A DNA stretch of 64,000 nucleotides, taken from Clytia hemisphaerica. Its lineage: Eukaryota > Cnidaria > Hydrozoa > Leptothecata > Clytiidae. The position numbers and the translations under genes are program-made. The notes under the pieces are model-generated. The model ran no database searches. It saw nothing but the letters and a program-made list of their open reading frames with translations, and was not told the origin of the DNA. The first letter of the stretch is position 1, and every line of letters starts with the position of its first letter. The DNA lies in contig CACVBU010000415.1 in NCBI GenBank assembly GCA_902728285.1, forward strand, positions 247,776 through 311,775. The letters run 5' to 3'. Positions 3,850 through 61,612 of this stretch are shown piece after piece.

Positions 3850-5465
3850 ATTTTCAATGTTTTCTTTATCGGTTACATAAATACTGATTTATCATTCTCC
3901 ACTGACAGCTTACCAAGACCATTCAACTCTAACCCCTTTAGAAACGTTTAGCTTCTTCTGAACCATTTTTTCCCCCCACCTGGGACACACATGTGATTTC
4001 TTGTGATGGATGAAACCGGTACGATCTTTGAATTTTGCGTGAAGATCTTTTTGATTTTCGCCTTGTGGACCAATAGAAACTCCTCATCCATTATTACTTC
4101 AGGTAAAGGCATTCGCTATGTCGTTTCCTTCCATTCCATCGTGAAGTATTTTTTGTGCTGTCTATCAATGCAATTAAACAGTTAACCGAATACGTTACCA
4201 ACGTGATGGCTCGTTCCATGTCGACCATCCCAATTGTGAAATCCAGATTTGATAAGTCATCGGCATCGAGGTTTGAGGTAACAACGCGTAGTGCGCACTG
4301 GAGAGCAGCTACTCTCAGCACATTACCGATACTTTTGGACATAATCATTGATTTCATGTCTTCGAACACATCTGCCTTTCTGAAGTCCAAACTTTTTGAT
4401 CATATGATGCAAACAAAGTAATGCTTCAGTGTCTAGCTCAAAAACATGACCTTTATAGTAAAAGTGTTTGAAAATTTTGTCAAACAAATTCTGGATACAG
4501 AGTGGAACTTTTGTTTTCGAAGCTGCAATTTTTTTCCGTTATTGGAACATACTCTCCTCTTCAGAAGTAGCGACCAAACATCTTGGCAGGAATCCATCAA
4601 AATGATTGCTGTTAACGATCATGTTAATAAGAAGTAGTTTTTGGTTAAACCCATAAAACTGAATCGTGGGTCTTCAATTTCCACCTTTCCGCCCGTGCTT
4701 TGTCTTTTTTGACCATGATGAACCGGACCAAAGAGATAGATATCTAAGAGATAAAAGTATCTTATGTTCATATACCATTACATGAAGAGCTATTTTCAAA
4801 AGATAAACGTTAAAATTGAACATACGGATGTCAGGTCTATACTAACTGAGTTATGCGAAAACCCGTGCGAACACAATTAAGATTTTAGGTTCTCCATTGG
4901 AGTGCGTATTACCTATATTTGACGGTGAGGTATATGGGATCTTAAAATTACAAAACTAAGTAAAAAGTTACCTTGAGCGTTCGACATTTCCATTTGAGTT
5001 TTTATCCATTGCATCTAAGAATGTGGAAAACTCGTCTACAGCGCATAAAACGGAGCCGTTGTTCTCATGAAGTGTGGTCATGAGACCCTCGATAGTGCCA
5101 CTGTCAAAGATGTGCTGTTTATCATCTCGCTCATTTGTTTCAATCTTGTTGATGATATTTCGAAAAGTGATACACAGCTTGATTTATTTGTACCACTTCT
5201 GCCTGATACCAACGAGTAAAGGATGACGGGTTCTTGGTACGATTCAGCCAGTTTTACTCTGCTCACACCGAGACAGTATGATATACTCGTTAGAAGTGGG
5301 TCTGCAAGGTAAGAATACGGAACTCCAAGTTTTTTCTTCTCCACTGTTATCCATTCATCGATTAGTGTAGGGAAGGTTTTCTGTGTGTCCAACTTTACGC
5401 CCAACATTTTTCCAGTGCGCGCCGGTAAACATCGTCTGAGATTTCTTTCAAAGGTTTCGACATGA
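3850..5465 (-). pseudogene. DUF3987-like P-loop ATPase gene, copy A (broken)
   Basis: Read from ATG at 5463 (MSKPLKEISDDVY). The reading passes a frameshift near 5400, then shows LGVPYSYLADPLL, a Walker-A-like SGRSGTNKSS near 5185, a frameshift near 5165, IFDSGTIEGLM, and a Walker-B-like VDEFSTFLDAMDK near 5000. A GT-AG intron lies at about 4755-4971. It is followed by RYLSL..WSKKTK, HFDGFLPR near 4600, RKADVF..GNVLRV near 4350, and a C-terminal part ending NGLGKL near 3890. This order (hydrophobic lead, GxxGxxKS, DE, DGFxxR, late RV segment) fits DUF3987-type primase/helicase ATPases known mostly from phages and plasmids. Every block aligns with copy B at 59054-61612. At least four frame breaks make it a pseudogene or an assembly-damaged gene. 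It diverges from the KDZ gene at 5717. The DUF3987 assignment rests on motif layout only. Confidence 0.7.
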
Positions 5466-5716
5466 TTGTTCCTCGAGTGTTGATTGAGGTGAAATGAATT
5501 TATGACCGTTAAGTTTCTAATTTTTAAGATGGCAATGCAATGTTCTCCCCAAAATCAAAATCCGACGTCACAACAACTAAAAAAGCCATTGCATTGTCTT
5601 CTTGAAAAATGATTGTAACGTCAGTTTTTTATGAAACAAATTATGTACAAAAGAAAAATTTGTTTGAGTACAAACCTTCTGGAAGCAGATACGGAGAAAA
5701 GTTAAGAGGCGCGAAG
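5466..5716. promoter_or_regulatory. divergent promoter region of copy A
   Basis: About 250 bp separate the two divergent starts (5463 minus, 5717 plus). It holds a CRE-like gacgtca at 5564-5570 and a duplicated gcaatgcaatg/gccattgcattg inverted pair (5532-5542; 5585-5596). The equivalent region of copy B also has tgacgtca (58953-58960). A shared bidirectional promoter is inferred. Confidence 0.5.
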
Positions 5717-7494
5717 ATGATTATTCGGATTGATGTATTGAAAGTGTTACAGAATTTACTTAGTAATGTTTCATTACGCACTCCACACCGAATCGAATAC
5801 ATAACGAAGACTTTGCAATCGTATGTAACCACATTAAGTGACAGTAATCTACAGGTATTAGAAGACCTTGACCTACCAAATGGTGAAGTTTATTTTCGTC
5901 CAATCGAAAGTCATATCCTACCTACACTGCAGCACCTGTATGGTTAGGTATAAAACAGGGAACAGCGAATACATGGAGCAGCCAGCATTTATCCCAATTA
6001 CCACTACTTGTTGCTCGAAGAAGATCAGGATTAACCCTAGAGCATCCCAAGTAAGGATTTACACTGAAAATGGCATTATTGATGGATTGAATTACCATGG
6101 TTTGTGTAAGACGAAGTTTTACAGACACTGGACAGAAAATAAAGATGGATATCGAACGTATCTAACAGATGGAGATGACTACTTTATGATCACGTCATCC
6201 ATAGCTTTTACGACACGATATCTAGAGAGGATTTCTCTACAGATTTGTATTGGTGCTACAAGTTTTGATAAGATTTCCGAAATGTACAATGTTGAATTTG
6301 GAATTGATGACTCTACAAAGAAACTGATTGCCGAAGTCATCGAAAATCATTGGCTCATAAAACGACTAATAAGCATTTGCCCCGCAATGTTATGGCACAG
6401 AAAGGACCACAATAAACATTTCGATATTGAAAAGATATGTGAAGATGTGTATCCAACCTTGAAAAAAGTAATCGATCAAAAATGGTTTTCACACGAATGT
6501 AACGAGACAGGTAATTCGGATACATTTTGAACTTGATTCATTTTAACATTATATGTGTAGGCTTAAATTGAAAAAATGACTATTACACCCCTGTCTCAGC
6601 ATCCCGGTTAAATGTTTCCCAGTGGGGTTTTTCAAAATTAATCAAAATAATGACTTTTCTAAATATAGGTTGCAAGAATAAGATGGTTGTAATCGACGGA
6701 AACGAAAAATTGTATCGATATTGTTGCGCTAAACCGATAACTAAGTTGCCTCATGAGATAGGAGAAGTTAACAAAGTTGTTCGTTGTATAAATAATCCGG
6801 TTAGAGGAAATCAATCTTTAAAAGGATCCAAATTATGCCACATCCACTCTAACGAGTCAGGAGAGATGAAAAATGAAATCAAAAATGAAAGATTAGACCT
6901 TTATCCTATGACTAGACAAAGAGTAAAGCTATTGGAGAATGTTATTACAAGTGGAGAAGGTTGCAAGAAAGAAGAGAATTGCAACAAGTACGAGACACGG
7001 ACTGCTGGTATGTTGTATGTTTTTAGATCATGCGGCATTCGATTGTCCCATTTGAAATGTATACTGCTGAAAGTCTATCAATGGTGTTTACAGGGTTAAT
7101 TGATATATTTCAAGGAAATCTTAATGGAAACTTGAAAGGTATAGTTTATGATAGATCCTGTGATCTACACCCGTACGTCTGTAGATTAGCAAGGGAAGGG
7201 AATGTTTTTGCCAAGGAAATGAAGAATTAATGTTTATTGTGGACGTTTTTCATGCTGAGAAACACACGCAGTCGAAATGCGTGCTCAGTAGTGACGACTG
7301 TAAATACCATCCCGATCTTCCTAAATTTAAGGATGTGCGTAAGATGAATACGGAAGTCTGTGAGCAAACATTTCATGTACTGAATTGTTACAAAAACATC
7401 ACAAGGAATATGACATATGCAAAGAGGTTATGTTTTATTGAAATTACTGGATGACAATTATAACACCAGGCTTTCTAAAAAGTTAAGTTATTGA
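5717..7494 (+). pseudogene. KDZ transposase with CxC5/CxC6-like clusters, copy A
   Basis: The likely start is MIIRIDVLKVLQ at 5717, matching the copy B start. After a frameshift near 5890-5935 comes a CxC5-like cluster (TTCCSKKIR..VRIYTENG..YHGLC, about 6000-6115). An acidic linker and a GT-AG intron (6511-6668) follow. A CxC6-like cluster comes next (VVIDGN..RCINNPVRGNQ..KLCHIH, about 6685-6850). After a frameshift near 7000 the transposase core reads MYTAES, GIVYDRSCDLHPYV (about 7140), VDVFHAEKHTQSKC (about 7235) and NTEVCEQTF (about 7350), ending with LLDDNYN and a stop at 7492-7494. The VDxFHxxKH and NxExxEQ motifs are those of CxC5/CxC6 KDZ transposases in fungi; the D and E residues are the presumed RNase-H-fold catalytic set. 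Two or more frameshifts make it inactive as written. It is paired divergently with the ATPase. Confidence 0.82.
6511..6668 (+). other. intron in KDZ copy A
   Basis: gtaattcgg...aaatatag splits a glycine codon in ..NETG^CKNK... Copy B is continuous at the homologous place (HSCSNVGCKDK). The intron contains cctgtctcagcatcccggtt, and a closely similar cctgtctcag...accgggg segment lies in the unrelated intron of ATPase copy B. Confidence 0.8.
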
Positions 7495-7814
7495 GATGGT
7501 TAAAAAAGATGTTAAATTAAAGCTGTATAATTCAAATTTTTCACGAGTGTTTCGTTCACTTTTAGTTGCAGGTGTGTTTTAATTATAAATTGTTTAATTT
7601 TTTTGGTATAAAGAATTAATGAAGATGTTGTAAGAGTTAAAAATTACAATATTGGGATATTTATAACTATATTTTTAAATTTATGAATAGGGATGTATAT
7701 AAAATTTAAGAAAATGTTTTACTCATTAATCGTGGTAAATATTAAAGGTCTCAATAAATTTGAAAAAATTGTTTCTAATCTGTGAATAAAAATTAGATAT
7801 GTCAATATTTCACA
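7495..7814. other. non-coding flank of element copy A (KDZ side)
   Basis: About 320 bp of AT-rich sequence between the KDZ stop and the inverted satellite. No gene is seen. Confidence 0.5.
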
Positions 7815-8420
7815 AAAGGTTGCACTGCGCGACGATTTTCGCTGCTGCGTCGAAGCCGCGAAGGTAAAAACTTAAATAAGATTATATTTTCTTGCGAAAG
7901 GTTGCGCTGCGCGACGATTTTCGCTGCTGCGTCGAAGCCGCGAAGGTAAAAACTAAATAAGATTAAATATTTTCTTGCGAAAGGTTGCCTGCGCGAACGA
8001 TTTTCGCCGCTGCGTCGAAGCCCGAAGGTAAAAACTTAAATAAGATTAAATATTTTCTTGCGAAAGGTTGCGCTGCGCGACGATTTTCGCCGCTGCGTCG
8101 AAGCCGCGAAGGTAAAAACTTAATAAGATTAATATTTTCTTGCGAAAGGTTGCGCTGCGCGACGATTTTCGCCGCTGCGCCGAAGCTGCGAAGGTAAAAA
8201 ACTTAAATAAGATTAAATATTTTCTTGCGAAAGGTTGCGCTGCGCGACGATTTTCGCCGCTGCGCCGAAGCTGCGAAGGTAAAAAACTTGAATAAGATTT
8301 AAATATTTTCTTGCGAAAGGTTGCGCCGCGCGACGATTTTCGCCGCTGCGCCGAAGCTGCGAAAGTAAGAACTTGAATAAGATTTAAATGTTGCCTTGCG
8401 AAGCCTATGCGCAGCGCCGA
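7815..8420 (-). repeat. 82-84 bp satellite, inverted homologue of the 86-bp satellite
   Basis: About seven head-to-tail units, each with gcgaaaggttgcgctgcgcg, then ttcgccgctgcgccgaag, gcgaagg and an A/T-rich tail (aaacttaaataagatt). Reverse-complementing the 86-bp unit of 407-3345 gives gcgaaaggcttgcgcagcgc, ttcgccgctacgccgaag and gcgaagg in the same order, so the two arrays are related, diverged and oppositely oriented. The arginine/alanine-rich frames across it are shadows. Confidence 0.93.
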
Positions 8421-9080
8421 AGTTTTTGTGTAAATCGCCGGCCCTTTGCAGTAACTGCAGTAAGTCACTGCAATTGTTTTATATGAACGAAAGAACGTTT
8501 GATTATTCTATTTCTTATTTCATTACAGAATCTTTTGTTTATTTGAAAAAGCAAACTAAAAACAGAAACATGTCAAATCAAATTATAATCACTCTCTGAA
8601 TTCGCTTTAACAGCAAAATTAGTAAATGGGCTATTTTGCAATCCTTATAAAAAACTATTTACGGGATGTGTGAAGCCTGCACAATTTTGACAATTTTTAT
8701 AAGAATGTCGAAAGTTTTTTAAGCCTTTGAATCTCCTAATTTCTCATATATTTAAGACTAAAAATTGAAACGTGTATAAGTTCTTCTTTTAACCATTTTC
8801 TGACTGTTTTGGTGTATGTAATTTCTTAAAAAATTGTATGTTGTAAATTCTGCAAAAGCCTTGAAGGACAAAATTTGATATATATCTCCTTAAATATTTG
8901 CATACACAAAATGTTGAACAAAAGATACTACAGTGCCTTTTATACTTATACGAATTTAGATGCTTTAGCTTGGGCTTTTACTATGGTTTAAAATTATAAT
9001 TTATCAGTATGAATTAGACAGCGCGTTAAATTAGAAAAATGAGAGTACTTCCAGAAGCAGCCAACGAGCCCATTTCCCCG
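8421..9080. other. non-coding stretch
   Basis: AT-rich, with ctgcagtaactgcagtaagtcactgcag near 8447-8470 as the only local pattern. No gene is recognised. Confidence 0.6.
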
Positions 9081-9084
9081 AAAT

Positions 9085-9575
9085 ATCTGTTTCCCTTTTC
9101 CAGGAGAGAGCTTTTTTTGAAAAATGGGGAAACAGATCCGATTTTCTAGGAGAGACCTTTTCCTTAAAACTATCTGTTTCCCCGCTCCAGCTGATGACGT
9201 CATCAGTGAGAAACAGATCAATATTTCTAGGAGATGACATAATAAATTGGGAAACAGATATCTGCTTCCAAAAAAGATGATATTGCATTGGAAACAGATT
9301 GGACTTTATGGGGGAAACAGATATCAATAACAAAAAGAAAGGGAAACAGATGAAAATTTCCAGGAGAGGGGAACAGATATCCTATTTGGGAAAACAGATC
9401 AAAATTTTAATTCTGAAAATTGTGGAAACAGATCAAATTTTCTAGGAAAGATACTTTGAGATTAAAAATTTAGGTTTTGCGGAGAAACAGATCTTCATTT
9501 CTAGGAATCAGAGTTTTGAAATATTCGGCCAACAGATCAAATTTTCCAGGAAGGCTATGTCTGGGAAACAGATAT
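9085..9575. repeat. cluster of dispersed gggaaacagat motifs
   Basis: About 14 copies of (g)ggaaacagat(c/a) lie 20-70 bp apart. The first and third are inverted (9085-9095; 9172-9182); the rest are on the plus strand (9126, 9208, 9249, 9289, 9311, 9341, 9368, 9388, 9423, 9481, 9530 and 9563, approximate). Many are followed within 20 bases by tttctagga or tttccagga. The spacing is irregular, so this is not a simple tandem array. A long frame at 9031-9333 is a shadow. Confidence 0.85.
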
Positions 9576-10757
9576 TTAAAAAAAGGTCCTCGTTGGATGC
9601 TTTCGTACTTCCTTTCTTGGTATATCTTAAAAATTCCTCCGGTATTTCGGTGTACGTAACTCTTTTACGTCCCATCTTTTATAAACTGACAGTTATATTG
9701 AAAGAGACAGATTTCACCTTGAATTTTTTTATTGCTTTGTTAAGACACCAGACATATGACTGGCTTATTTTAGATAATTTGTACATACCCTTTTGCCCTA
9801 AAGGTTGGTGCATGTTAGTAGACTTGGGTGTTGATTGTGAGAAGTTGTTGGTTTTGTTTGACTTTGTTTCTGGTCAACTCCAGATCAAAAAGCTCGTCCA
9901 GGAGACTTTCCTCCTGCTGGAGTTGACCTTCTGTCTTTCTATAGTGAATGTAAGTCTCTCTCTCTTTAGGTTTTGTTGTCTTGCATGTTTTGTTACGACC
10001 CCCAATCCCCCTGATTTTCACATTTTATCATGTTATCATTTTATTCATTTTCAAAAAGAAAAATATGTGATGCTATGAAATGCATCCTTTTGCTTTCTTC
10101 TGTTAACATGTTGTTTTTTGTTAAGCCTTAACTTTACCTTCTGAAACTTTGAGCTTCGCTGATTTCAAATATGTTTTCAGATTGTTTATACCTTTCTGGG
10201 ATCAGAAGCCATTTTTTGAGGAATAGGATATGAAAAAAACTCAAAAGAAAACACTTTTGAACGAGCCCAGTTCTTCTCAACGAAGCATTACTTGTAGTTG
10301 TATTTTTTCACTTCAAGAAAAATGTATTGAAGTTTGTAAATTGTCAATTTTTCGAAATAGACTTTAGTTCAAATATTAAGGAAAGTATTTTTTGTGGAAA
10401 TCATTTTTGTGTTGCAAGGATATGAAATCTACAATTTTTAATGACTTTAGAAAATAGTATCGATTATCATTTAGAGTAAATATTTTAATTTAGTACTAGT
10501 GTTTTATGTCACTTTTATTTCTATTTGAGTAAATTCTTGTGTGATATTCTAACAATTGCATCTTTACATTTTCATACAGAAAAGAAAAATTTACCTTTTT
10601 TGTTAAAAAGATTGTATTTATTACAGAACCTTTTGATATAATAATAATATGAGGTCTGTGAGGGCTGAATATGGAACTTCCTCAACCTTTGAAATCAAAT
10701 ATTTAGGAAAAGGGTTGATTTGAAAAATGTTACGGTATAAGTCTTTAAATTTGGGTT
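9576..10757. other. AT-rich stretch, frame at 9557-10078 unassigned
   Basis: A 173-codon open frame is rich in Phe/Leu/Cys and resembles translated T-rich sequence more than a protein. I cannot assign it. No other gene is recognised up to the minisatellite. Confidence 0.5.
9872..9928. other. 12-bp perfect inverted repeat
   Basis: ggtcaactccag (9872-9883) pairs with ctggagttgacc (9917-9928). The 33-nt loop contains aggag...ctcct, which can extend the stem. Function unknown. Confidence 0.75.
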
Positions 10758-12055
10758 GTGGGAGGTTTTACCTTTTTCTGGGTGATTGTGGCTGATTGTA
10801 CCTTTTTTTCTGGCTGGTTGTACCTTTTTCTGGCTGGTTGTACCTTTTTCTGGCTGGTTGTACCTTTTCTGGGTGGTTGTGGCTGGTTGTACCTTTTTTT
10901 CTGGCTGGTTGTACCTTTTTCTGGCTGGTTGTACCTTTTTCTGGGTGGTTGTGGCTGGTTGTACCTTTTTTTCTGGCTGATTGTACCTTTTTTTCTGGCT
11001 GGTTGTACCTTTTTCTGGCTGGCTGTACCTTTTTCTGGCTGGTTGTACCTTTTTCTGGGTGGTTGTGGCTGGTTGTACCTTTTTTCTGGCTGGTTGTGGC
11101 TGGTTGTACCTTTTTTTCTGGCTGATTGTACCTTTTTTTCTGGCTGATTGTACCTTTTTTTCTGGCTGGTTTACCTTTTTCTGGCTGGTTGTTAACTTTT
11201 TCTGAGTGTTGTGGCTGGTTGTACCTTTTTTTTCTGGCTGGTTGTACCTTTTTCTGGCTGGTTGTGGCTGGTTGTATCTTTTTTTCTGGCTGATTATACC
11301 TTTTTTTCTGGCTGGTTGTACCTTTTTCTGGCTGGTTGTACCTTTTTCTGGCTGGTTGTACCTTTTTCTGGGTGGTTGTGGCTGGTTGTACCTTTTTTTC
11401 TGGCTGGTTGTACCTTTTTTTCTGGCTGGTTGTACCTTTGTCTGGCTGGTTGTACCTTTTTCTGGGTGGTTGTACCTTTTTCTGGGTGGTTGTGGCTGGT
11501 TGTACCTTTTTTTCTGGCTGGTTGTACCTTTTTCTGGGTGGTTGTGGGTGGTTGTACCTTTTTCTGGCTGGTTGTGGGTGGTTGTACCTTTTTTTCTGGC
11601 TGGTTGTACCTTTTCCTGGATGGTTGTACCTTTTTCTGGGTGGTTGTGGCTGGTTGTACCTTTTTCTGGGTGGTTGTACCTTTTTCTGGGTGGTTGTACC
11701 TTTTTTCTGGTGGTTGTACCTTTTTCTGGGTGGTTGTGGCTTGTTGTGGGTGGTTGTACCTTTTTTTCTGGCTGGTTGTACCTTTTTCTGGTTGGTTGTT
11801 TGGCTGGTTGTAACCTTTTCTGGGTGGTTGTGGCTGGTTTACCTTTTTTTGGCTGCTGTTGTGGGTGGTTGCAACCTTTTTTTTCTGGCTGGTTGTACCT
11901 TTTTCCTGGGTGGTTTGTGGCTGGTTATGGCTGGTTGTTGCTGATTGTGGGTGGTTGTGGCTGATTGTGGCTGGTTGTGGGTGGTTGTGGCTGATTGTGG
12001 CTGGTTTGTGGCTGGTTTTTGTGGGTGGTTGTGCTGGTTGTGGCTGGTTGCGTAT
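10758..12055 (+). repeat. 1.3-kb G/T-rich minisatellite, hierarchical
   Basis: Built from three 10-bp modules: tggctggttg, tgggtggttg and tacctttttc. The main body alternates the 20-bp unit tggctggttgtacctttttc with insertions of tgggtggttg. From about 11930 the tacctttttc module drops out and pure 10-bp GT-rich modules (with tgattg variants) remain. The strand is almost devoid of A. Several long frames on both strands (Phe/Trp/Leu/Val or Thr/Gln/Lys/Pro repeats) are translations of the array, not genes. The unit is the reverse complement of 1-146. Confidence 0.96.
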
Positions 12056-13065
12056 TTTAGTATTACCCATTTCGCACAACAAAATAACACAATAAAAAAC
12101 TTTTATTTTTGCACTGAGCAAATTTTCTTTACTTTGATAAATTTTAGCTTTTTAATTAAATTAGATCTAATGTTACTTCAAAAAACGACTTTAATTTTTT
12201 TTAAATCATTTTAGTATGTGACGTCATTTAATCAAAAAACTTAAATATCTTCCAACTGGAGCCACTTTTGGTGATAAAATTTTGCCCATGAATTTAGTGG
12301 AGCATTTGTAAACCAGTGAAATCAAAATTTTTATTATTTTTTTGCTGACGTCAGCAAAAATATGCAAAATTCGAATTATTGCAATAAAATGCTGACGTCA
12401 TCAAAATTTTCTTTGCCTTAATATCTTTCAGTTTTTCAATTTCAGCTTTATAATCAAAGTATATCAAAAGTTATTGCAAAAAACGGTTTTATGACGTCAT
12501 CAGTTAGCCCGAAATCAAAATTTCTTAATTTTGGGCTGAAAATTTGAAATTTTTGAAAAATTCTTTTTTCATACTACGAGTTACCATTTTTTGCACAGAA
12601 ATTAATCAAAATGAAACAACGAAATCCTTATTTTTAGTACTTTTTACCCCCGGATTTCTTCATTTTTTGTTAGGTGCCCCTACAAAATTAGTAGAATAAA
12701 ACTAATTCTTGGACAAAACTGATTTTTTTCAAATTTTTTTTTTAACCCATAGTGTAATGATCAAAGATCATCTAGAAGAAAAAAGATCAGAAAATTTTAA
12801 ACCCAAATTAGAATTATAGCCAAAACATGCCGAAAATAGAGTTTTTTTCTATTAAAAAATGCCCCTTTTTGGGCCACTTTTTGGAAGGCCCTCTGCAGTA
12901 AAAGTTGGCTAATTTTTGCTCCAATTAGCTTCACAAAAAATCCCATAACTTTTTTTCTATAATTGCTAGGGAAGTCAAGGACCCCTCGTTGAAACGAAAA
13001 AAGATAGAGCTTTCCAAAAAACCAAGTTTGACAGGGGGGTTTGAAAGTTTGAAAATCGGCCTAAA
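12056..13065. other. non-coding AT-rich region with TGACGTCA-like motifs
   Basis: gacgtca occurs several times (near 12221, 12345, 12391 and 12491, approximate) among long A/T tracts. No gene is recognised. The last part may be the 5' region of the MULE fragment that follows. Confidence 0.6.
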
Positions 13066-13509: not shown

Positions 13510-13829
13510 ATCTTTACTTTCATATTTTTGCTGGTGATAATCAGTATAGAATGTGTTCAAAGTTCTAAATTGTAGGTGTTAATGCTCATTAAACGGTAAA
13601 TATAAATGATTTATGTATTCATAGAGAATTAGTCTATTTAAATAAATTCCATGACACAGATGATCTATATAGAATCCATTAAAGGTCAGTTCTTTATTCT
13701 TATCTAGCTAAAGAGTTCTGCAGAAATGATTTTCGTAGATTCCAGCGGAGGTATGGAAGAATATAACCTGAGAATATTTCTGGTTGTGACACATTCTTTT
13801 TATTATTCATAGAATTATATTACACAGGT
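13510..13829. other. non-coding spacer
   Basis: AT-rich. It probably includes the 3' side of the LINE fragment that follows on the minus strand. No gene is seen. Confidence 0.5.
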
Positions 13830-14942: not shown

Positions 14943-14944
<2 letters not shown>

Positions 14945-22904: not shown

Positions 22905-23817
22905 TTTACGTGGTAGAAAGTCGTTTTCTAAGCAAATTTTATGTGGATGGTTATACGAACAGTTTCAATTTAGCTCGTTTGACATCACCGAAAAGTTTAT
23001 TGGCATATACCATGCAAGTTCCTGGCCACACAAAAAGAATGAGTATTTAGAATCTTTAACCTCAAACGACGGAGAAAAATGAGTCATCATTTGCAGCAGT
23101 GCTCTTGGCTGTGGTGTTGATTGCCAAGATGTAAAGTTTGTTTTGCATTTTGGTCCGCCACATAACCTTGTTGATTATGCCCAACAAATTGGTCGTGCAG
23201 GTCGCTCAAATGCTCCAGATTGTCATGCAGTCTTTTACAGCTTCTCTCAAGCTGCCAAAATTGCTAATGATGTTAAAAGTTACATTGACCATACAGGATG
23301 TCTAAGGAAAAAACTGTTTTCTCCTTTCAGTGAGTCAGATACTGAGATCTCACCTGTTCAGCCTGGGCATGACTGCTGCAATATTTGTGCACAAGATTGT
23401 CATTGTGAATCTAAAACATGTAAAAAATCGTACTTTGAAGTTACCTTATCAGATGAAGATAAACCTGTCAAAGTAAGAAATGTAACTGACAAGGACTGTG
23501 AAACAATCCAATCAAGATTATTCAACCTTCATGAGAAAATAACTAAATCTTCAAATGCAATGTTTGTTCCCTCAGGTATCATATCTGGATTAACAAATGA
23601 AATCATTTTTCAAGTTGTTCGTCACCACAAACCTATCAATCGTTTCTGAATCTCAGGCAAAGGATATATTTGACATTATTGCTAGCCACTTTAGCAATAC
23701 AGCGCTTCCTTGTGAACCACAATTGTGAAAAATGTGGAAAAACAATATGAATTTGGGGATTTTGAATTTGAGAGTGATTTTTCTCTTGAAGAAGATTATG
23801 GGGTCCTTGAAGATTAA
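22905..23817 (+). pseudogene. RecQ-family DNA helicase, C-terminal half
   Basis: In one frame from about 22915 the sequence gives a helicase C-terminal domain: GIYHASSWPHKKNEY, an in-frame TGA near 23080, then VIICSSALGCGVDCQDVKF (motif V), HFGPPHNLVDYAQQIGRAGR (motif VI with its arginine finger) and the RecQ zinc-binding region (TGCLRK..CCNICAQDC). A frameshift near 23640 leads to SESQAKDIFDII and an acidic end, VEKQYEFGDFEFESDFSLEE, with stop at 23815-23817. The N-terminal helicase lobe (DEAH box) is missing. RecQ enzymes unwind 3'-5'. This type, with the GRAGR motif and acidic tail, is multi-copy in cnidarians, so mobile-element ancestry is plausible but not shown. It is convergent with the DUF6589 gene. 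Confidence 0.8.
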
Positions 23818-32233: not shown

Positions 32234-33300
32234 GATTTTCACATCTGAAAGGTTTAGATTACGGAATTTTGCAAGACCGCGTAAAGGATTTTGCAGCGAG
32301 GAGTCTGGTAACCCAGCAACCTCGTTCCCTGCGTATTATTAGCTATTTATATGCTTACTGATAGCACACCCCCTTCTCACATCCCCACTGGGAACCCCTC
32401 CCACTAGAAAAATTGTCCAAAATATCGTCCCCGGTGGGAAATTAACCCCGAATTTTTGTCTCCATTAAAAATAATCAAATATGAAAAAATGGCAGATTTT
32501 TTGTTTTACTTTTATGACGTTTTGTTTTAAGAAATTCCCCCACTGACGTCCTATAAATTAACCTTTGTCCGTCCGTCCGTTCGTTCGTCCGTCTGCTGTT
32601 ACCAGCTTTTCTCGAGATTGGCTCATTAGTTTTTTCTGATTTTTGGCAAAAATATGCAAAATGGCAGCCGGAAAAACCGTTTTTTGGCCTTTCCTCGAGA
32701 TTTCATCATTAGTTTTTTCTGATTTTTTTGCACAAAGATGCGTATTAAGAATGCCCAAAACATTGCAGAGTACGATTTTTGAAAAAAACTTTTTTCCGGC
32801 CGAAAATACCGGAAATATGCCGGAAATTGCCGTTTTTACAGATTTTTATCGGACTTTTGCCTTATGTTTTGTTGTTTTTTCACACAAAAACATTATTTAT
32901 AACAATACCCACACTATCAAGCATAGTTCAATTGTCAATTAAACTGATTTTTGAAGCCGGAACCTACTAAAAATTGCCGGAAAAGCCGATTTTCGCCGGA
33001 AAAACGGTATTTCTTGAATTTCTCGAGCTGTACTTTTATTTTTTCACGAAATTGATGCAAAATGGCAATATCCGGTATAAGATATTATAGAAGTCGCTGT
33101 GCATAAAACATACTATATCATATCATATGATGTAGGATAGCGTTATATTGTAAGATAATATGACTAAATGAAAAATTATTGCGTGTGGATTACGGTCTTA
33201 CAATATTATGATGTTACATACTATTTTTTGATGTTGCAAACTATTTTCTAAAAATAAACTTTTTGCGCAATCATGCAATTATTATTATAGCAAAATAAGA
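32234..33300. other. non-coding stretch with (GTCC) microsatellite
   Basis: gtccgtccgttcgttcgtccg lies at 32569-32590. Two related segments (ttagttttttctgattttt at 32628 and 32710) indicate a local duplication. No gene. Confidence 0.6.
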
Positions 33301-33304
33301 AAAC

Positions 33305-34008
33305 CCAAATATATTTTTCACGCTCTTGCTCCATTAAAGTATAAAAAATCTGTTGTTATTGGAATGATTCATCGTATTTTCAGAGCATGTAGCTCTTACA
33401 AAACATTCCATGAGGGTTTAGAGCGTGCTAAAGTAATCCTTAACAGAAATCAATATCCCGAACCGCTAGTTGATTCTATCATACGAGATACTTTAAACAA
33501 ATTGTTTGAAAAAGAAGAGCCTCCTGTGGTGGAAGAAAATGAAGATGAAGAAGATGAGCCGAAAATGTTTTTTGTTGAATACAGGGGAAAATTATCTGAG
33601 GAATTGAAATATAACCTTGGAAAGTTGAAAGCCCCTTGTCGTGTCATATTTACTTTGAAAAAGTTAAAAACAGTGCTACCATCATTGAAGTCCTCCGTGG
33701 AAAAATCCTTAAAAAGTGGTGTAGTTTATAAAATTACCTGTCCACGATGTAATTCGTGCTATGTTGGCCAAACACGGCGACATCTTATCACCCGAATTAA
33801 GGAGCACGGTAGGAAAAACGCACCCGTTACCATTCACATGACGTCATGCCAGCACTCATTAACAATGGATGACGTAGCCATTTTGAAAGGTAGTTCTCGT
33901 TCGGCAAGCCATTTAATGACACTAGAGGCACTTTTTATTAATCAATTAAAGCCTCAACTGAACACAAAAGACGAGTATAGAAGCCGTACATTAGTAGTCA
34001 AGTTTTAA
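33305..34008 (+). pseudogene. Penelope-like retroelement, GIY-YIG end (5'-truncated)
   Basis: The frame opens upstream of the first ATG (33364) with ALAPLKYKKSVVIGMIHR, the conserved post-RT linker. It continues through a basic/acidic linker to a GIY-YIG endonuclease: GVVYKITCPRCNSCYVGQT, RRHLITRIKEH, then a histidine/asparagine-bearing ALFINQLKPQLN near the C-terminus (stop 34006-34008). Penelope-like elements join a telomerase-like RT to this nuclease, which cuts target DNA. The RT is absent, so the copy is truncated at its 5' end. The reading frame itself is intact over 214 codons, in contrast to most genes here. Confidence 0.85.
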
Positions 34009-51780: not shown

Positions 51781-51808
51781 AAGGAGTAGCAGTAATGATG
51801 AGGAAGAG

Positions 51809-53460: not shown

Positions 53461-54553
53461 CTTAAACGGTCATTTTTTTCAGGACAGCTTTTTTCATCAA
53501 AATGTGAACGGAAAATTAGGTTTTTATGTAGCAAATTGTCTAAGTTCATTATTGAATAATCTAGGCCGATCATGTCTGATCATACTTAATTTTTATTTTT
53601 ATTACAGCCAAGGGATATGAAAACCAAAATCTACAAAAACATTTTTTCCCAGAATAAATGCAAAAAGGTTGCGAGATAACTTTTTCCGTTCGCAAAGTTA
53701 TGTCCGCACACAATTGATTTGCTAGAGAAGTGAAAATGTTAATATCTATAGTTATTTGTTTGTTAACCCTTCCAATCCATTAGAGAACCAAACCAAGTAA
53801 CACTTAAATACCAGTTGCCTTTCATTGAAAAATATTCCATTTTGAATTGAACAGGGTATGATTTCCGTTCACAACTTGTCAACAATGATTCCGCATATTA
53901 TTTTCATCTGTATTTTTTCCAAACAACTTAAATTTTAGTGTCCAATGTACTTTATTCTCTATTCAATCGGTCTCTTTGAAGTTAGCTAATGCAAGTTTTC
54001 TATTTAAAAGACTTTTGTTGGTGAGAAAATGACTGAAGTGGCTTCCCTTGAAATCATTTATGTCCGCAACAAATGTTTCCGTTTTTTCAAACTATAGGCT
54101 CCTAAGATTACCAAAAAATATTGTTAGTAATGACTATTTAAAGTGATTTATACCTATTTAAATAAAATCTTATTTGGTTTTTTTAAAATCTGACTAGATT
54201 TCTTGAATTTAGTGTTGCGCACATAACTGATAATATTTATGATTCTGTGTTATGATATAATTTTGTTTTTCTGTTATTTGTCACACAGGCAGTTGGTGCA
54301 AAGCTTACTACAGGGTCATAACTTTAAGAAACATAAGTTTTTGACAAATGCTGGTCAATTCCATTAAGAATATGAAAAAAAACATTGGCAATTCTTTGTC
54401 TCTAGCTTTCTTTTTTCAAAAGTCTGAACCAATTTTTGGTAGGAAATATATTTCTTATGGCTCAAATCTTTGTTTCTAGCTTCTTTTACGTCTTAGTCAC
54501 TTATATTAACTTTGGATTTAACATTCAAGATAAGCTGAACTGCTACAAAGGCT
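53461..54553. other. non-coding stretch with repeated ttatgtccgc
   Basis: ttatgtccgc occurs at about 53697 and 54057 and inverted (gcggacataa) at about 54782. It may be a degenerate dispersed repeat. No gene. Confidence 0.5.
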
Positions 54554-54557
54554 TTAA

Positions 54558-54744
54558 AGGGACATAAAAGTACTTACGAAATTTGTAAACAAACTCTATG
54601 CAGCGGATACAAAATCAAACCAAATATGGCTAACTTTGATTGTTCAATTGTTTTACAAGTTTGTTTTGGACACGTGATTTTAATTGTTCTCTTTAATGAC
54701 ATGTGGTTTGCGCAATGTTTACATTTTACTACTTTTATGTCCCT
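54558..54744. mobile_element. 187-bp TTAA-flanked MITE
   Basis: agggacataaaagta and tacttttatgtccct are perfect 15-bp ends. TTAA lies on both outsides (54554-54557; 54745-54748), so it is a piggyBac/Kolobok-type non-autonomous element. Confidence 0.82.
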
Positions 54745-54748
54745 TTAA

Positions 54749-55093
54749 GTCTAATACTTTGGCTTAAAGTATTTCATGTTGCGGACATAACTCGCAGGCG
54801 TTTAGATCAGTTGTTATCTTAGTACTTAGTGAAACTTTGGTACTGCAGTGTAATGAGCGCACTATTTAATTGATTATATAATTATTCAAATTGATCATCT
54901 CTTGCACTGAAGAAACTCCAGTGTCCATGAAGTGAGTCCTTTCCATTGCTCTAAGCAAGTTTTGTGTTATTCTTTTGTTTCTTTTGGTTTGAAAAAGAAA
55001 TAGAGAAGTATTTATGTGGGGTTATCAGAATTCAAAGAAGTTCTTGAGTAATTTGATTATCATTATACTATTTATTGTAGACCTAATCTAAAA
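54749..55093. other. non-coding spacer
   Basis: AT-rich. No gene. Confidence 0.5.
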
Positions 55094-55679
55094 ATGACTA
55101 AATTTAAATTGCGTTTCCGTCCTGCTAAACTCCAGGAAACTATTCATCGTACAACGGATTATCGGCGCCGGATCAAGGACAAGAACCCTGAAAGAAAGAA
55201 AAAGGAGAGAACTTGAAAAGGCCAAACATGACAACTAAAGAGATGCAAGAATGAAGAGGAAAAGAAACGATGAATTGCAGGTGACGAGGCAAAAAAACTA
55301 CAGAGAGAGAAATAAAGCAGAGAAAGAAGCAACAAAGAAACGTCATTAGAACCAAGAACCAAATCTTGCAGAGGGTACAGAAACTCCTATTCTATCAAAC
55401 AAAAAAGTGGTTTGTCGTAAAGATTATCATCAAGAGTATAGAAGAAAACAGAGGGCTAACGAATCACGTCAGAAAAGACAAGCAGTTAAAATAAAGGATC
55501 GAGAAAGGAAAACACCACAAAGGAAAGCAAGTGAACAGCCATCAATTCTGACCCCTTTGAAATCGTCTCCAGCTTTGTCATCGATTTGTAACAGTAGTCT
55601 TGGATCGTACGCTGATACAGTAGCCGACTTGGTCGAATCTGCAACTTCTCTTTGGAAAACACAAGATAAGGTCATCTAA
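55094..55679 (+). pseudogene. broken Lys/Arg-rich gene, unknown family
   Basis: ATG at 55094 gives MTKFKLRFRPAKLQETIHR, TTDYRRRIKDKNPERKKKE and then a stop. The adjacent frame continues with in-frame stops near 55242 and 55347, then KDYHQEYRRKQRANESRQK and a Ser-rich end to 55679. The spacing Y(R)xxK..NPERxK..Y(R)xR repeats every 20-30 residues. Such basic helical repeats occur at the start of several transposon-like animal proteins, but I cannot identify it. One frameshift and two stops. Confidence 0.5.
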
Positions 55680-56430
55680 GAAATGTTATTCTCTAGACGA
55701 TGTTGCGACTGGGACAAATCAGCTATGGAAGGATATCAAGGATGGAAGCAACAATTCAATGCTCATTTGAAAAACCTTCAACATGAATTAAAGCTAAAAC
55801 AAAGGAGTTTTTAATAGACACGATCAGAACACTTCGGGTAATCAGAATCTTTTCTTAAAACTGTAAGGAAAATTCGATGTTTCCGCAATTGTACGTTCGA
55901 AAATATTAAGTTTTTAAAGACAAGAAACTGGAAAGACTTATATTTCATGCAGTGGGACACATATTCTAAATCAACCAAATCGATGCATTTCAACTTGATG
56001 CATCCAAACCTGAGACATTTCAAATCGATATATTCCAACTTGACACATTCCTATTTGAAACGTTCTATTTGACGATCCACAATATAAATTCCCTCCATTT
56101 TTATCTGGTCTGCGTTTTGTACGTTTAAAAGATTTTGCGCGCTTCATATGGAATTTCGCTTCAAATATCACCAGAGACTTTGTAGTGCAGTCTGCCTCCT
56201 TGATTCAGTTAAAATTACTTAAGAGTATCCATTATGGAAGACAATAACAACCTGTTGAAGTGCCTAGACGAATCTCGAAGGTCGCCCGAGCAATCTACTG
56301 AAGATAAAATCAAGAAATTACAAACATATCAAAAGAATTATCGTATATTTGAAGAAATCAGGCAAGGTCTTTCTTCATCAAGAACCTCCCATAATAACTT
56401 ACCGGTAGCAGGACACTTAGGCACAGATTT
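55680..56430. other. no gene recognised
   Basis: A 67-codon frame at 56234-56437 has a coiled-coil-like composition but no family. 55950-56060 holds a loose aaatcgatgcatttcaac-type iteration. Confidence 0.45.
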
Positions 56431-56889
56431 TGATTAATTCGTCTCAGACGTCTGAGATCATCTAAATTTCATCTCAAATCTTGACTATTTCTTTCCTTGA
56501 AAACAGCGTCTTAGACATCTCAGATCATCTGAGATCTTTCGAGATCATCTGAGGTTCGTCTCAAATTTTGACTATTTTTTTCCTTGAAAACAGCGTCTCA
56601 GACGTCTCAGATCATCTGAGATCTTTCGAGATTATCTGAGGTTCGTCTCAAATTTTGACTATGTATTTCCTTAAAAACAACGTCTCAGACGTCTCAGATC
56701 ATCTGAGGTTCGTCTCAAATTTTGACTATTTTTTTCCTTGAAAACAGCGTCTCAGATCATCTGAGATCTTTCGAGATCACTTGAGGTTCGTCTCAAATTT
56801 TGACTATTTCTTTCCTTGAAAACAGCGTCTCAGATCTCCAGAGATCTTTCGAGATAATCTGAGGTTTGGCTCAAATTTTGACTATTTGA
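56431..56889 (+). repeat. gatcatctgagg satellite, KDZ-side array of copy B
   Basis: About five and a half units of 65-90 bp. Each holds gtctcagacgtctcagatca, gatctttcgagatcatctgagg and ttcgtctcaaattttgac. The units contain nested palindromes (tctcagacgtctgaga). Inverted single units lie at 62178-62222, on the far side of the copy B genes. Confidence 0.9.
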
Positions 56890-57319
56890 TATTTTCTCCT
56901 ATCTTATCTATTTTGTAAGTTTTAAAACATCATCTAAGCTTCAATGTCAAAATGTTTATAACGTTTAGATCTTTTCGCTTCGAATTTTAATAACTCTAGT
57001 TGTAATTTTCTCGAACCATTAATATGTTTTTATTTTTTATATTTGCTGTAAATTAGAAATTGAATAAATGACTAACTGTTTGAAAAAGCAAAAATTATTG
57101 AATTATAAACTCAGATCGCATAACTTTATTTTAAAATATAAACAGATTATAAAAGCAGAATTGAACAACCTACAAAGACATCAAATTACTAAGAACACCG
57201 AAACATTAATTCTCACGAAATTCCTTGTATATAATTAATTTTTGTGCAATTTCATTTCCTAAGTTATTATTAGAATACATTATAATCTACCATGAAGGTT
57301 CCTTTCACTTAGTCATTGC
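56890..57319. other. non-coding flank of element copy B (KDZ side)
   Basis: About 430 bp, AT-rich. It corresponds in position to 7495-7814 of copy A. No gene. Confidence 0.55.
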
Positions 57320-58821
57320 CTACAATAGTTTTACTGATTTCCGCAAGTTATAATCATTGTCAATGAATTTTAAAGTCTTTTACCATAACACATTTTCCTC
57401 GTGATGTATTTGAACGGATTTATTCTTGCGAAAGACTGCTCAGCAATCTCAGTGTTCATGTCTCGAAAGATATCAAATTTCCGTAGATGGGGGTGGTATT
57501 TACGTTCGTCACTCGATAATGTGCATTTATCTTGGGTATGTTTTTCTGCGTGAAAAATATCAACTATATGTGTTAAACGCTTATATTTTGCAATATCATT
57601 TCCTTCCTTCGATAAGCGTTTTAAAAAAGGATGCAAGTCACAAGCTCTATCATAAACAATACCACGGATTTCATTAGCATTAGGATTATTGCCAAAAAGA
57701 TCAACTAAATACAAAAAGATTTTCTGCAGTATACATTTTCCAATGACTTAGCCGTTTTTGCCATCTTTGCAGCCCTCCAGTGATGTAACGATTTCAGGAA
57801 TCAACTTTTTATAACTACGGGTTATAGGCCGTAGATCTAACTTCTCAATGGTGTGACTAGATTGATCATTTTGGTGAAATTTGCAAAACTCAGACCCTTT
57901 CCTATATTGGTTACCTCGTACGGGGTTACGAATACACATTTCATATTGGTTTACTTTGCTTTCATTTCCATCTATAACAATGAATTTATCTTTGCAACCA
58001 ACGTTAGAACATGAATGCTTCAACCACGTACTATCGATAGCATCTCGAACACTAGGATACACACGAATGGCAATCTTTTCGATATCAAGCTCACCTTTTG
58101 CGTTACGGGGCCATTCTTCAAAGGTTTGTTGGAAGAAAAGAATTTTGTAAATAAACCAGGTGTCCTCTAAACGACTTGGATTCAATTTAATGGACGGGTT
58201 GTGTAGGTTGTTGTAAATGTCGGATGCAGCTTCGAATGACACATTTCCAATACCGATTTGTAAATCAATGTTTCTTAATAGCTCTCGCTCGAAAACCACT
58301 CCGTTTCAAAATAACAAATATGGCACTTGCACGTTGGTGAATATTCGGCATTTTGTCACACGATGTTCCTTGTAACCATAATAAAAGATATATCCACACT
58401 GACATTTTCCGTGGTAGCTTTTTCCATAGAATAAACCATCCGTTTTGTAAATATTTATCTTTGCATGGCTTCTTGCTTCGAGTTTGATTGGCTTCCCGCA
58501 GCAAAATAAATTGTCAGGTAACAATATAATATCCTTGATTGTACGTTTTGAAGATGGCATTTTGTTATATTTCGGTAGATAATCTATTATAATTGTTAAT
58601 GTCACTTCATCAAAAGTAAATTCTTGCTGAGAATAAACTTCTTGTTCAAATCCAAGATCAACAATTACACTTTCTGTGGTGTAGTTTTGTCTTTTTATTT
58701 CAAAATCACTTTTCAGTTCTTTGAAGATTTCAATGACTAGTCCGATTCTGTTTGGAGTACTAACCGGAACACTCTTTGTTATTTCTGACAGAACCAGCAG
58801 CAAATCCAAATTGATCTTCAT
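57320..58821 (-). pseudogene. KDZ transposase with CxC5/CxC6-like clusters, copy B
   Basis: Start ATG at 58821 (MKINLDLLLVLSEI). A CxC5-like cluster (LFCCGKPIKLE..NIYKTDG..YHGKCQCGYIF) lies at about 58510-58370. An in-frame TGA is at 58306-58308. The sequence resumes as VVFERELLRNIDLQIGIG, DIEKIAIRVYPSV, and a CxC6-like cluster (FIVIDGN..CIRNPVRGNQ..EFCKFH, about 57990-57870). After about 57750 a frame break and an apparent deletion of some 25 codons follow. The core then shows MYTAE, GIVYDRACDLHPFLKRL, VDIFHAEKHTQDKC, NTEIAEQSF and, after a last frameshift, IDNDYNLRKS with stop at 57320-57322. It aligns with copy A throughout but is strongly diverged. It lacks the intron of copy A. Confidence 0.82.
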
Positions 58822-59053
58822 TTTTCATGTTAATAAACTTGTTATCCCTTGTTAAAAATGACTATATCAAAGATCACATTGCAGTTATAATTTTGAAATT
58901 GAGACGATTGCTTTTTCTTACGTCAATTAATAAAGATGGCATTATATTGCTGTGACGTCAATTTATTGATAACCTTCCATAGCTTTAAACCGTTCGATGT
59001 TCGATAACTGAATCATTTCTTAAAAAGAAAGGACAGTGAGTAGACGTATCAAG
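58822..59053. promoter_or_regulatory. divergent promoter region of copy B
   Basis: 232 bp between the two divergent start codons, with tgacgtca at 58953-58960 and aagatggcattatattg just before it, comparable to aagatggcaatgcaatg and gacgtca of copy A. A CRE-type shared promoter is inferred. Confidence 0.5.
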
Positions 59054-59322
59054 ATGTCAAGGATCGCTATCGAGGACAATGAATATCTACGTATCCTCAA
59101 AAATGCATGGAAAGTTCCATTTGATTTATCAAACGCATTACCATTGGAACAATACGAGTGGATTAACTATCACAGCACAATTTTGGGCGTTCCTGATACA
59201 TATATATCATGGCCGCTTCTTGCTACTGCAAGTTATTGTGCTAAACACACATTTGTAAATTGCAAACAACTCCATCGTGAACCAACCAGTCTTGATTTAG
59301 GCTCTTGTTGCGGGTCGTACCG

Positions 59323-59614
59323 GTAAGTTTATGTTTTCCTATCATTGCCAGCTTTGCAATTTTTTCTCGATTAAACATTAAACAATAATTATTTAAAAAA
59401 TGTTGTACATTCCTGTCTCAGTGCCCCCCCCACCGGGGTATCTAAATTCAATTGGGTGAATTTCAAATATTTCTATCCCACTGGGTCACTTTCTTCCAGC
59501 AGGGTCATATTATATCGCCTCTAACTTTATTTCATCATATTTTCAGTAGGGTGGTACTTTCTAATTTTTTATTTTAGCACATGGTTAATAATCTACTGAC
59601 CCTTTTTTCTTCAG
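59323..59614 (+). other. intron splitting the Walker A motif of ATPase copy B
   Basis: gtaagtttatg...ttcttcag splits the second glycine codon of GRTG^TNKS. Copy A is continuous here. The intron contains cctgtctcag...caccgggg, similar to the intron of KDZ copy A. Confidence 0.8.
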
Positions 59615-60279
59615 GTACCAATAAATCGGGGCATTGCGGCTTGGCAAAGATGAACTGGCAAAGGTTCCGATCACGTATTTGAATCTAGCACAATGGAAGG
59701 GTTATTGAAAACGTTAACAGAAAATAACGCACGTGTTTTGGGAATATATGACGAATTTTCTACCTTTCTGGATAATTTGGATAAAGGTACCACCGGATCG
59801 TCAGAAATAGGGAGATATCTGTCATTGTATTCTGCTGTCGATTGGTCCAAAAAAACCAAATCATCTGGTTCGTTCAATTATGGCTAGTTTTGCGCAACCA
59901 TTTTACGCTTTAAACTTTGTGAAAGGCAATCAACTTGATGGTTTTTTTCAACGTTTCTTGATTTTCATGCCCCAAGAAAAAATGGTTTATATTGATGAAA
60001 AGTTAGCTAAGATGGAACAGAAAAATAAAAACTTAGTAAATCTCTCTGAAGTTTTACAAACCATTTACAACTTTTGTCAACAAGAATATTGTGAACTTTT
60101 CCCGAGTACAAAATCGTTCATGATGATATTGTCGCTTTCCGTTCTAATGATCTCTTTGACGAAGAATTGGTTAGTATAAAATCTAAATCGTTGGGCCAAA
60201 TAGTACGTGTGAGTGGAGTCGTTTCCTTATTGCGCACCTTAATGATGAAAAACGTGATTTCACTTCTACCATCGATAAG

Positions 60280-61168
60280 GGGTCGTTGTAAAACATGGAT
60301 TAGCTCCATGGAGTACCCCCAAAAATACCTGTCAGAGCGATGAATATCACTAATTTGATAATCAACCTTTTCCACCAGCTGCAAACCACCAATTTAAAGC
60401 TATCAAAAGAATTTCCAAAGTATTTTTTTGTGAAAAAATGGCTACCATTTCTGGCTGTAAAGCTCATATAGCGCACGCTCTCTGCTTAGAAATCTTTGTT
60501 GATTCTACAATCAAACAGACCAGATTTAGCTTACAGAATAGCTCTGATATATCAAACACTTTAAGATATTACATATAATATCAGTGTAATTGTATATAAT
60601 ATTATGTGTTATATTATTTATGTAACACCAGTAGGGTACTAGAGCTTTCTTAAACAATATTTTTCTTTTGTCCATTTGTCAACAGATTGACATTTTTAAA
60701 GAAAATATTGTGACAATCATAGAATACATAGCTCATCAACACATTTCTAAAAGGAATTTTTATCATACTCAATATGATACAGGTAGTATGACTGGATATG
60801 AAATGGCAGTTGGGGACAGTCTGTGAGAGAGGTTACAGAGGGGTTTTAGAGCATTAATTATTCATTATCATTTTATTGACAAAATACACTTCAATTAACA
60901 AAATAATAAGACATTCACAATAAATGGAGTGTGCCAACTTATTTCTTTGATATAAGAATTTCATACTCAATGTGATGCAGATGCATAAAAGGATATAAAA
61001 AGAGACCATTCAAAAAGAAACATTCTTGCTACAGAGTAGTTTTAGAGCAAATACAAAATTATACAGGTCTTTATTTTCCTCTCGCGGCGATCTAAAATCT
61101 GGTCTGCAATATTTTTAGAGTACTCCAATAGGTACTCCATGGTGCTAATCCATGTTTTACAACGACCC
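60280..61168. mobile_element. 889-bp MULE-like MITE inserted in the ATPase gene
   Basis: The ends gggtcgttgtaaaacatgg and ccatgttttacaacgaccc continue inward as an imperfect inverted repeat of about 38 bp. The flanks are atcgataag (60271-60279) and atcaataag (61169-61177), a 9-bp target duplication with one mismatch. The interior has a degenerate direct duplication with a period of about 198 bp (tcatactcaatatgatac near 60764 and again near 60962). No transposase. Codons on both sides align with consecutive parts of copy A. Confidence 0.85.
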
Positions 61169-61612
61169 ATCAATAAGTACGATTTCCTCGTGTCAAAGCG
61201 TATTGTTGATCACTCAATCGCAACAAGTTTTTCATTGCTTGACAAACAATCAAATCGATGGTCTAAGCATGTCTTAAAGCCTGGTATTCCGGACCCTAAA
61301 AATATGACATTAGAATTCTTGTTTCCTCACAGCAAATTTGTCAAAAAATTGTTATCGCGAGATGAAACGCCGTTATCTATAATTTCACGTGATAACATTT
61401 ATCCGGTTATTAACAAAGAAAAAGGTTCGTCTGTGGCACTTAAATTTGTTCGCGGGCTTTGTAATGTGGGTTTGGGGAGAATTGACGAGAGCACAAAACG
61501 ATTTAAACGTTTCTGGTTGGATGACAATGACTGCGACGACAAGGAAAATTTGGAAAGTAAATGGAACTTAACATTGATATGTAAAGATATGTTAGAAAAC
61601 GTAAAATGTTGA

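Follow-up and report, generated by a model that had tools for sequence, protein, structure and literature searches.

The closest described relatives of the element treated here are transposons of the KDZ superfamily (Zisupton, Dileera and Kyakuja), among which the fish-type Zisupton proper has a C-terminal Ulp1/SUMO protease isoform. We analysed a stretch of 64,000 nucleotides from the hydrozoan Clytia hemisphaerica (contig CACVBU010000415.1, C296:247776-311775; "the window" below), which holds two copies, A and B, of a two-gene element. Both loci belong to the KDZ superfamily of DNA transposons, and in each a KDZ transposase gene lies head to head with a gene for an ATPase of the family DUF3987. 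As far as the available parts of two papers go, KDZ elements can carry accessory genes (PMC12730594, PMC12477816), among them the TET/JBP dioxygenase genes of fungal elements (PMC12730594), and their transposases can exceed 1300 amino acids (PMC12477816). Target site duplications (TSDs) of 8 bp are given there for Zisupton and a Dileera family, and two Kyakuja families are described with 7-bp TSDs and without terminal inverted repeats (TIRs; PMC12730594). Our element shares with this superfamily the KDZ domain (PF18758), a CxC-type cysteine cluster, the 8-bp TSD and the habit of carrying a further gene. It differs in its compact transposase (541 amino acids in copy L050), in the divergently oriented DUF3987 gene and in its subterminal tandem arrays. 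An earlier note, made from the letters of this DNA, had suggested an undescribed transposon class. The lineage is indeed new, but its place is within the KDZ superfamily, where its KDZ domain, its TIRs, its 8-bp TSD and, in some families, its CxC cluster all fit.

Other systems resemble our element in single features. Foldback/TU elements have inverted terminal regions of tandem repeats, and the TU elements of sea urchins have 8-bp TSDs; unlike for these, a coding partner is known here, and the gene-less derivatives L063 and L064 described below look much like them. Kolobok transposons target TTAA, and membership in Kolobok is ruled out for our element because Pfam gives KDZ and the TSDs are 8 bp, not TTAA. 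In the available part of one paper, KolobokH and Kolobok-1_CCri are DDE transposons with an added helicase, which in Kolobok-1_CCri is encoded on the complementary strand (PMC9587614). Their transposase belongs to a different superfamily, however, and the helicase is RecQ, not DUF3987. The DUF3987 domain itself is known from the PrimPol-DUF3987 primase-helicases of phages and plasmids (PrimQH and All3500 families), and Kazlauskas and colleagues predicted it to be the helicase domain of mobile-element primases (PMC5862659, available in part). The domain in our element is homologous, whereas its ATPase has no primase domain and stands alone, beside a transposase, in an animal. Hence, as far as these partly available sources show, the principle is not new, because KDZ elements with accessory genes and DDE transposons of another superfamily, Kolobok, with a helicase are already known. 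What is added is that an uncharacterised ATPase family, so far a topic of phage and plasmid replication, is now seen to recur as the partner of a eukaryotic transposase, within an element that is defined as a whole: ends, TSDs, arrays, two genes, and internally deleted and gene-less derivatives. We found no KDZ-DUF3987 element, head-to-head partner or arrays of this kind reported in the literature searched, which did not include most subscription journals or the founding Zisupton and KDZ papers.

Copy A is a complete element of 8.1 kb (349-8448), of which a nested insertion makes up about 1.75 kb. It starts with GAGTGGGGCGACGATTTGCACAC, finishes with AAATCGCCGGCCCTTTG and is bounded by identical 8-bp TSDs, CAGTAACT, at 341-348 and 8449-8456. 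Its ends were set by alignment with two copies that are 97% identical to it on two further contigs, L039 (C722) and L040 (C733). Its features are:

341..348, no strand: target site duplication CAGTAACT, DUF3987 side, from the sequence
349..8448, no strand: whole element, TSD-bounded, ends matching those of L039 and L040
349..395, plus strand: terminal inverted repeat, DUF3987 side, beginning GAGTGGGGCGACGATTTGCACAC, inner limit approximate
421..606, plus strand: outer part of the DUF3987-side array, 2.2 units of 86 bp
607..2362, no strand: nested insertion within the DUF3987-side array, boundaries approximate (arrays of L039 and L040 uninterrupted, 9 units)
2363..2954, plus strand: inner part of the DUF3987-side array, 6.9 units of 86 bp
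4094..5554, minus strand: DUF3987 ATPase gene, frame-broken, with Walker A GRSGTNKS and Walker B DEF
5606..7454, plus strand: transposase gene with CxC5 and KDZ, frame-broken
7815..8384, minus strand: KDZ-side array of 6.8 units, each about 82 bp and related to the DUF3987-side unit in inverted form
8406..8448, minus strand: terminal inverted repeat, KDZ side, ending AAATCGCCGGCCCTTTG, inner limit approximate
8449..8456, no strand: target site duplication CAGTAACT, KDZ side, from the sequence

Copy B is a remnant (56414-62224) that has kept its KDZ-side terminus at 56414 and lost its DUF3987-side end:

56414..62224, no strand: element remnant, terminus CACTTAGGCAC at 56414, homology to L042 stopping at 62224
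56414..56434, plus strand: KDZ-side terminal repeat CACTTAGGCACAGATTTTGAT, a terminus common to L041, L042, L044, L045, L046 and L048
56454..56887, plus strand: KDZ-side array, units of 78-87 bp
57370..58824, minus strand: KDZ transposase gene, from frames and Pfam
59024..61612, plus strand: DUF3987 ATPase gene, broken by the nested insertion
60280..61168, no strand: nested insertion of 0.9 kb with 38-bp inverted ends, 97% complementary
62163..62224, minus strand: remnant of the DUF3987-side array

The two pairs are thus head to head and mirrored, as the earlier note had it (ATPase minus and KDZ plus in A, KDZ minus and ATPase plus in B). Its coordinates of 3.85-7.5 and 57.3-61.6 kb hold for the genes but not for the elements, which are wider (349-8448 and 56414 to about 62224). 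Its view that the copies are separate families is borne out: their readable parts are 29% (DUF3987) and 43% (KDZ) identical, and better copies of the two families 36% and 44%. Both window copies are decayed, with broken frames and nested insertions at about 607-2362 and at 60280-61168. Because they are broken, several of their pieces fall under the Pfam cut-offs. The raw frames of copy A give DUF3987 in two pieces (5.3e-5 and 2.2e-5), each under the curated cut-off, KDZ just under it (8.6e-6, 26.0 bits against 26.6) and CxC5 (PF18718) over it (4.9e-7, 30.4 bits against 26.9). Those of copy B give DUF3987 in one piece under the cut-off (0.0098), KDZ over it (7.1e-8, 32.8 bits) and no CxC5 match in the Pfam scan.

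The evidence for the pair as a unit comes from the whole genome (417 Mb in 951 contigs), from which all copy counts are taken. It bears the mark of an animal in 39 matches to the wnt family, which is known only from animals and gave no match in any of 14 control genomes. Both the PF13148 and PF18758 models and the L041 proteins served as queries, and clustering of the hits left 46 DUF3987 loci and 63 of the KDZ clade. At 30 of the 46 a clade KDZ gene lies within 8 kb, head to head in 26 cases and in another orientation in four. By chance one would expect about 0.1 pairs (computed for 41 and 63 loci). Seen from the other gene, a DUF3987 partner is found at 33 of 63 clade KDZ loci if short fragments are counted, and at 27 of the 38 with at least 150 amino acids matched. 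Hence the two genes, whose copies might have turned out to lie mostly apart, are together more often than apart. KDZ genes elsewhere in the genome show nothing of the kind: none of 79 other KDZ places (110 PF18758 hits minus 20 of the clade and 11 repeat hits at places already listed) is within 10 kb of a DUF3987 locus. In a KDZ tree of 34 sequences, 15 from the clade and 19 others, the DUF3987-paired KDZ sequences are separate with a local support of 0.934; of the 30 loci L009-L038, 15 were included in it.

Some details of counting bear on these figures. The clade KDZ hits come from a single query, the C-terminal part of L041; DUF3987 hits confined to residues 400-480 or so of the first query, for the most part a dispersed repeat, were dropped; and some further pieces at loci already counted are omitted. 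The DUF3987 gene of window copy A was entered directly in the chance estimate and later recovered by the L041-protein search. L043 (C624) and L005 (C540:377 kb) were scored as unpaired although part of the 5' region of the KDZ gene remains. We read four KDZ-only loci, the others being known from search hits: those on C170 (98% identical to L041), C643 (96% to L052), C274 (93% to L051) and C412 (77% to L052). No DUF3987 was found in these four, arrays were called by one or both of their ends, and judging by these identities they are closest to DUF3987-bearing families.

That these are mobile elements is evident from their termini. A perfect 8-bp TSD flanks 10 of the 21 copies tested (window A, L039, L040, L042, L044, L045, L048, L057, L063 and L064), each at a separate site with a duplication of its own. 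In family A the TSDs are AAGATTCC (L040) and AAGTTTTC (L039), at ends matching those of copy A. Family B has the ends GAGTGTAGCACGGATTTTG and CAAAATCCGTGCCTAAGTG and the TSDs TGGTTTTG (L042) and CATGGAAA (L048). The C250 family has TCCTGACT (L044) and GTTTTCTC (L045), L057 has GAAAAAAT, and L063 and L064 have GCTTAAAT and AAAAATAG. L041 matches at seven of eight positions (CAAAAAAT against CAAAAAAA), and L043, whose KDZ side is missing, was left out of the testing. Better copies are bounded by short, imperfect TIRs that read GAGT... on one side and ...AAGTG or ...CTTTG on the other. Out of 25 positions, the two repeats share 16 or 17 in families A and B and 12-14 in the C250 family.

Inside the termini lie tandem arrays with units of about 70-95 bp. 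Tandem Repeats Finder called them by both ends in 9 of the 16 copies scanned (window A, L040, L041, L045-L049 and L053). Periods on the DUF3987 and KDZ sides are 86 and 82-84 bp in family A. For family B the two periods are 86 and 87 bp, and for the C250 family they are 84 and 81-84 bp. L047 and L049 have 93 and 71 bp, and L050, L051, L053 and L057 have 94-95 and 69-75 bp. In families A and B the units of opposite ends are related and mutually inverted, with about 68-78% identity. The number of units differs within a family (on the DUF3987 side 5.5 in L041, 6.0 in L044 and 9.5 in L045). The potential of the units to form hairpins gave mixed values, with z-scores between -4.1 and +0.7 relative to mononucleotide shuffles, and supports no claim. 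An array of another sort, derived from the element, is found at C335:626576-638257, where five similar KDZ C-terminal fragments and one partial fragment follow each other in tandem every 2.3 kb.

A probe of 92 bases from the DUF3987-side end of copy A (349-440) matched 31 places in the genome, gene-bearing copies included. Two of these places were read, L063 (73-1247, 1.18 kb) and L064 (90-1393, 1.30 kb), both on contigs where neither gene was detected. They have both family A ends, perfect 8-bp TSDs and a DUF3987-side array (4.3 and 6.9 units called), and no match to the coding region of the element among the matches listed. Since these gene-less copies have clean TSDs, element ends plus an array would appear to suffice in cis. 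Our element also supplies a coding source for array-ended elements that resemble foldback elements.

The KDZ domain is over the cut-off in window B, L039, L041, L042 and L050, and E-values in the better preserved relatives range from 9.6e-8 to 1.7e-11 (L042). The transposase frame of L050 is unbroken. CxC5 is strong in L039 (5.2e-13, 49.6 bits against a cut-off of 26.9), under the cut-off in L041 (25.9 bits) and L042 (22.2 bits) and unmatched in L050. The transposase thus bears a CxC5 cluster in several families. Cysteine-cluster partners of KDZ transposases had been mentioned in the earlier note; here the cluster is present but lies within the transposase protein, not in a separate partner. 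In the transposase frames scanned with Pfam, only KDZ and CxC5 exceeded their cut-offs, and no Ulp1/SUMO protease domain was found in the frames scanned, the exon structure being unsettled. Conserved acidic residues in the motifs VIDGNEK, GIVYDR and NTExxEQ are candidates for the DDE residues. Other KDZ lineages with open frames of 363-501 amino acids are present away from DUF3987 loci (L059, L060 and L061, on C261, C788 and C8).

The ATPase is a P-loop protein of the DUF3987 family, as the earlier note had supposed. Pfam matches PF13148 in L041 with 106.8 bits against a cut-off of 27 (1.8e-30). The protein is about 440 amino acids long, and the terminal 40-50 residues of the L041 frame are a dispersed repeat (L041:2887-3021), to whose translation dozens of further loci give matches. 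Most aligned copies retain both Walker motifs, A (GRSGTNKS) and B (DEF), together with an RFL motif. We considered a primase fused to the ATPase and rejected it, because Pfam finds DUF3987 alone, and no primase domain, in the 480 amino acids of L041. In PHROGs the ATPase matches a family annotated "DNA helicase" (3.8e-15) and two primase families. It is also related to a phage protein of 772 amino acids on an IMG/VR viral contig (L054), in which an N-terminal Prim-Pol domain is joined to DUF3987; the L041-type ATPase aligns with the core of its C-terminal half at 25% identity (2e-8). These similarities make the ATPase a homologue of a domain of phage primase-helicases, and it may act as a helicase.

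L054 was the one relative found among viral contigs with a DUF3987 alignment as query. These contig scans rested on two to six short peptide patterns each, so a miss weighs little: the L041 ATPase and the KDZ query found no relative among viral contigs, the DUF3987 domain of L054 found itself only, and no relatives of the element proteins were found among genome contigs. Searches of phages and plasmids with tblastn gave no relatives of the element proteins, a sequence search of solved structures gave no match, and NCBIfam gave nothing meaningful. The genome has a second, far more divergent DUF3987 gene, 24% identical to L041 (L008:1393-2319, C310:9990-10709), on a contig where neither the PF18758-model nor the L041-protein search matched KDZ.

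The two proteins appear to have diverged in step. Distance matrices of KDZ and DUF3987 proteins correlate with r = 0.946 across 15 copies (p 1e-4) and r = 0.93 across seven representatives (p 0.0015). Because one close pair drives much of this correlation, it was retested with one or the other member of the closest pair removed; r was then 0.73 or 0.77, and 11 or 6 of 720 permutations reached these values. Substitution ratios point to purifying selection on both genes in the single informative pair, L050 and L053: the ratio of nonsynonymous to synonymous rates (dN/dS) is 0.07 for DUF3987 (410 codons; dS of 1.8, near saturation) and 0.105 for KDZ (524 codons). The pairing described in the earlier note stands, and its interpretation is largely borne out.

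There are also observations that speak against a fixed and functional partnership. At 16 of 46 DUF3987 loci no KDZ partner, and at 30 of 63 clade KDZ loci no DUF3987 gene, was detected within 8 kb. Most fully read copies were picked by their DUF3987 hits, so the presence of this gene in every sampled family is partly a matter of choice. Eleven of the 21 tested copies lack a perfect TSD at recognisable ends (one of them is the seven-of-eight match of L041): for L046, L047, L049-L053 and L056 the search gave chance-like 8-mers only, in L058 the best candidate pair sat inside the arrays, with none at recognisable ends, and window B lacks its DUF3987-side end. In 7 of 16 copies (window B, L039, L042, L044, L050, L051 and L052) just one of the two ends has a called array, and in L063 and L064 the KDZ side resembles the KDZ-side units of copy A, yet no array was called there. 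The selection test rests on one pair of ten, as three deep pairs are saturated and six close pairs have dN/dS of 0.38-1.33, one of them with a meaningless 4.95 (dS 0.001), which fits young or dead copies. L045 and L057 have perfect TSDs without a DUF3987 gene. Hence the gene is no requirement in cis; its product could come in trans or not be needed at all, or the gene could have been lost once the element had inserted. Finally, all of this comes from one genome.

Even so, we regard it as virtually certain that this is an element with a head-to-head KDZ and DUF3987 gene pair, and very likely that both genes are working parts of it. One could argue that two unrelated repeats became neighbours by chance or were copied together by segmental duplication of the host, for the genome is repeat-rich and two copies are near each other on C786. 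With 30 pairs observed where about 0.1 are expected, and ten copies at separate sites with TSDs of their own, this explanation is ruled out for all practical purposes. We consider it likely that normal transposition requires the ATPase, with less assurance than for the pair because copies were picked by DUF3987 hits. In our model the transposase would recognise the ends and arrays, cut by DDE chemistry and insert with an 8-bp stagger. The ATPase would assemble on the arrays or on the transposase-DNA complex and would spend ATP to open or remodel the element ends. Such a helicase or remodelling mode is a reading we hold tentatively, somewhat short of believing it. It is possible, though rather unlikely, that a eukaryotic DDE transposon took over a phage-type replicative helicase that loads on iteron-like arrays and couples transposition to strand opening or replication, in a copy-and-paste or repair-coupled manner. 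To our knowledge, such a coupling has not been described for eukaryotic DDE transposons.

Mu, Tn7 and IS21 share the logic of a DDE transposase with a separate P-loop ATPase. The DUF3987 protein might likewise be a regulator of the MuB, TnsC or IstB type, a filament or ring that depends on ATP and activates the transposase, chooses targets or confers immunity without opening strands. The lack of a primase domain, with DUF3987 alone in the 480 amino acids, and the conserved Walker A, Walker B and RFL motifs would suit this role. The sequence relatives, however, are phage helicase and primase families and a PrimPol-DUF3987 protein, and the Pfam scan brought up no TnsC, MuB or IstB family at E-values up to 1; we find a regulator rather unlikely. 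Slightly less probable still is a role for DUF3987 as a passenger or in counter-defence, comparable to that of the TET/JBP dioxygenase in fungal KDZ elements, in which it would aid persistence and not transposition. Accessory genes are known in KDZ elements (PMC12730594 and PMC12477816, in their available parts), and L045 and L057 show that insertions with perfect TSDs can lack the gene. Against a passenger stand its head-to-head position in each of six diverged sampled families (picked by DUF3987 hits), its apparent divergence in step with the transposase under similar constraint in the one informative pair, and the absence of any silencing-related domain in the frames scanned. The defined element opens direct tests of whether DUF3987 acts as helicase or regulator, and of whether animal KDZ transposases need an ATPase.

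The window has some further features outside the two elements. An Rfam scan of the window returned nothing at gathering scores. At 10698-12046 and 1-152 lies a 20-bp satellite (units TGGCTGGTTGTACCTTTTTC and the complement) that contains long open frames. A fragment of a Helicase_C domain lies at 23083-23646 (1.6e-9), and a GIY-YIG catalytic domain (4.7e-5) lies at 33232-34005 in an open frame of 258 amino acids.

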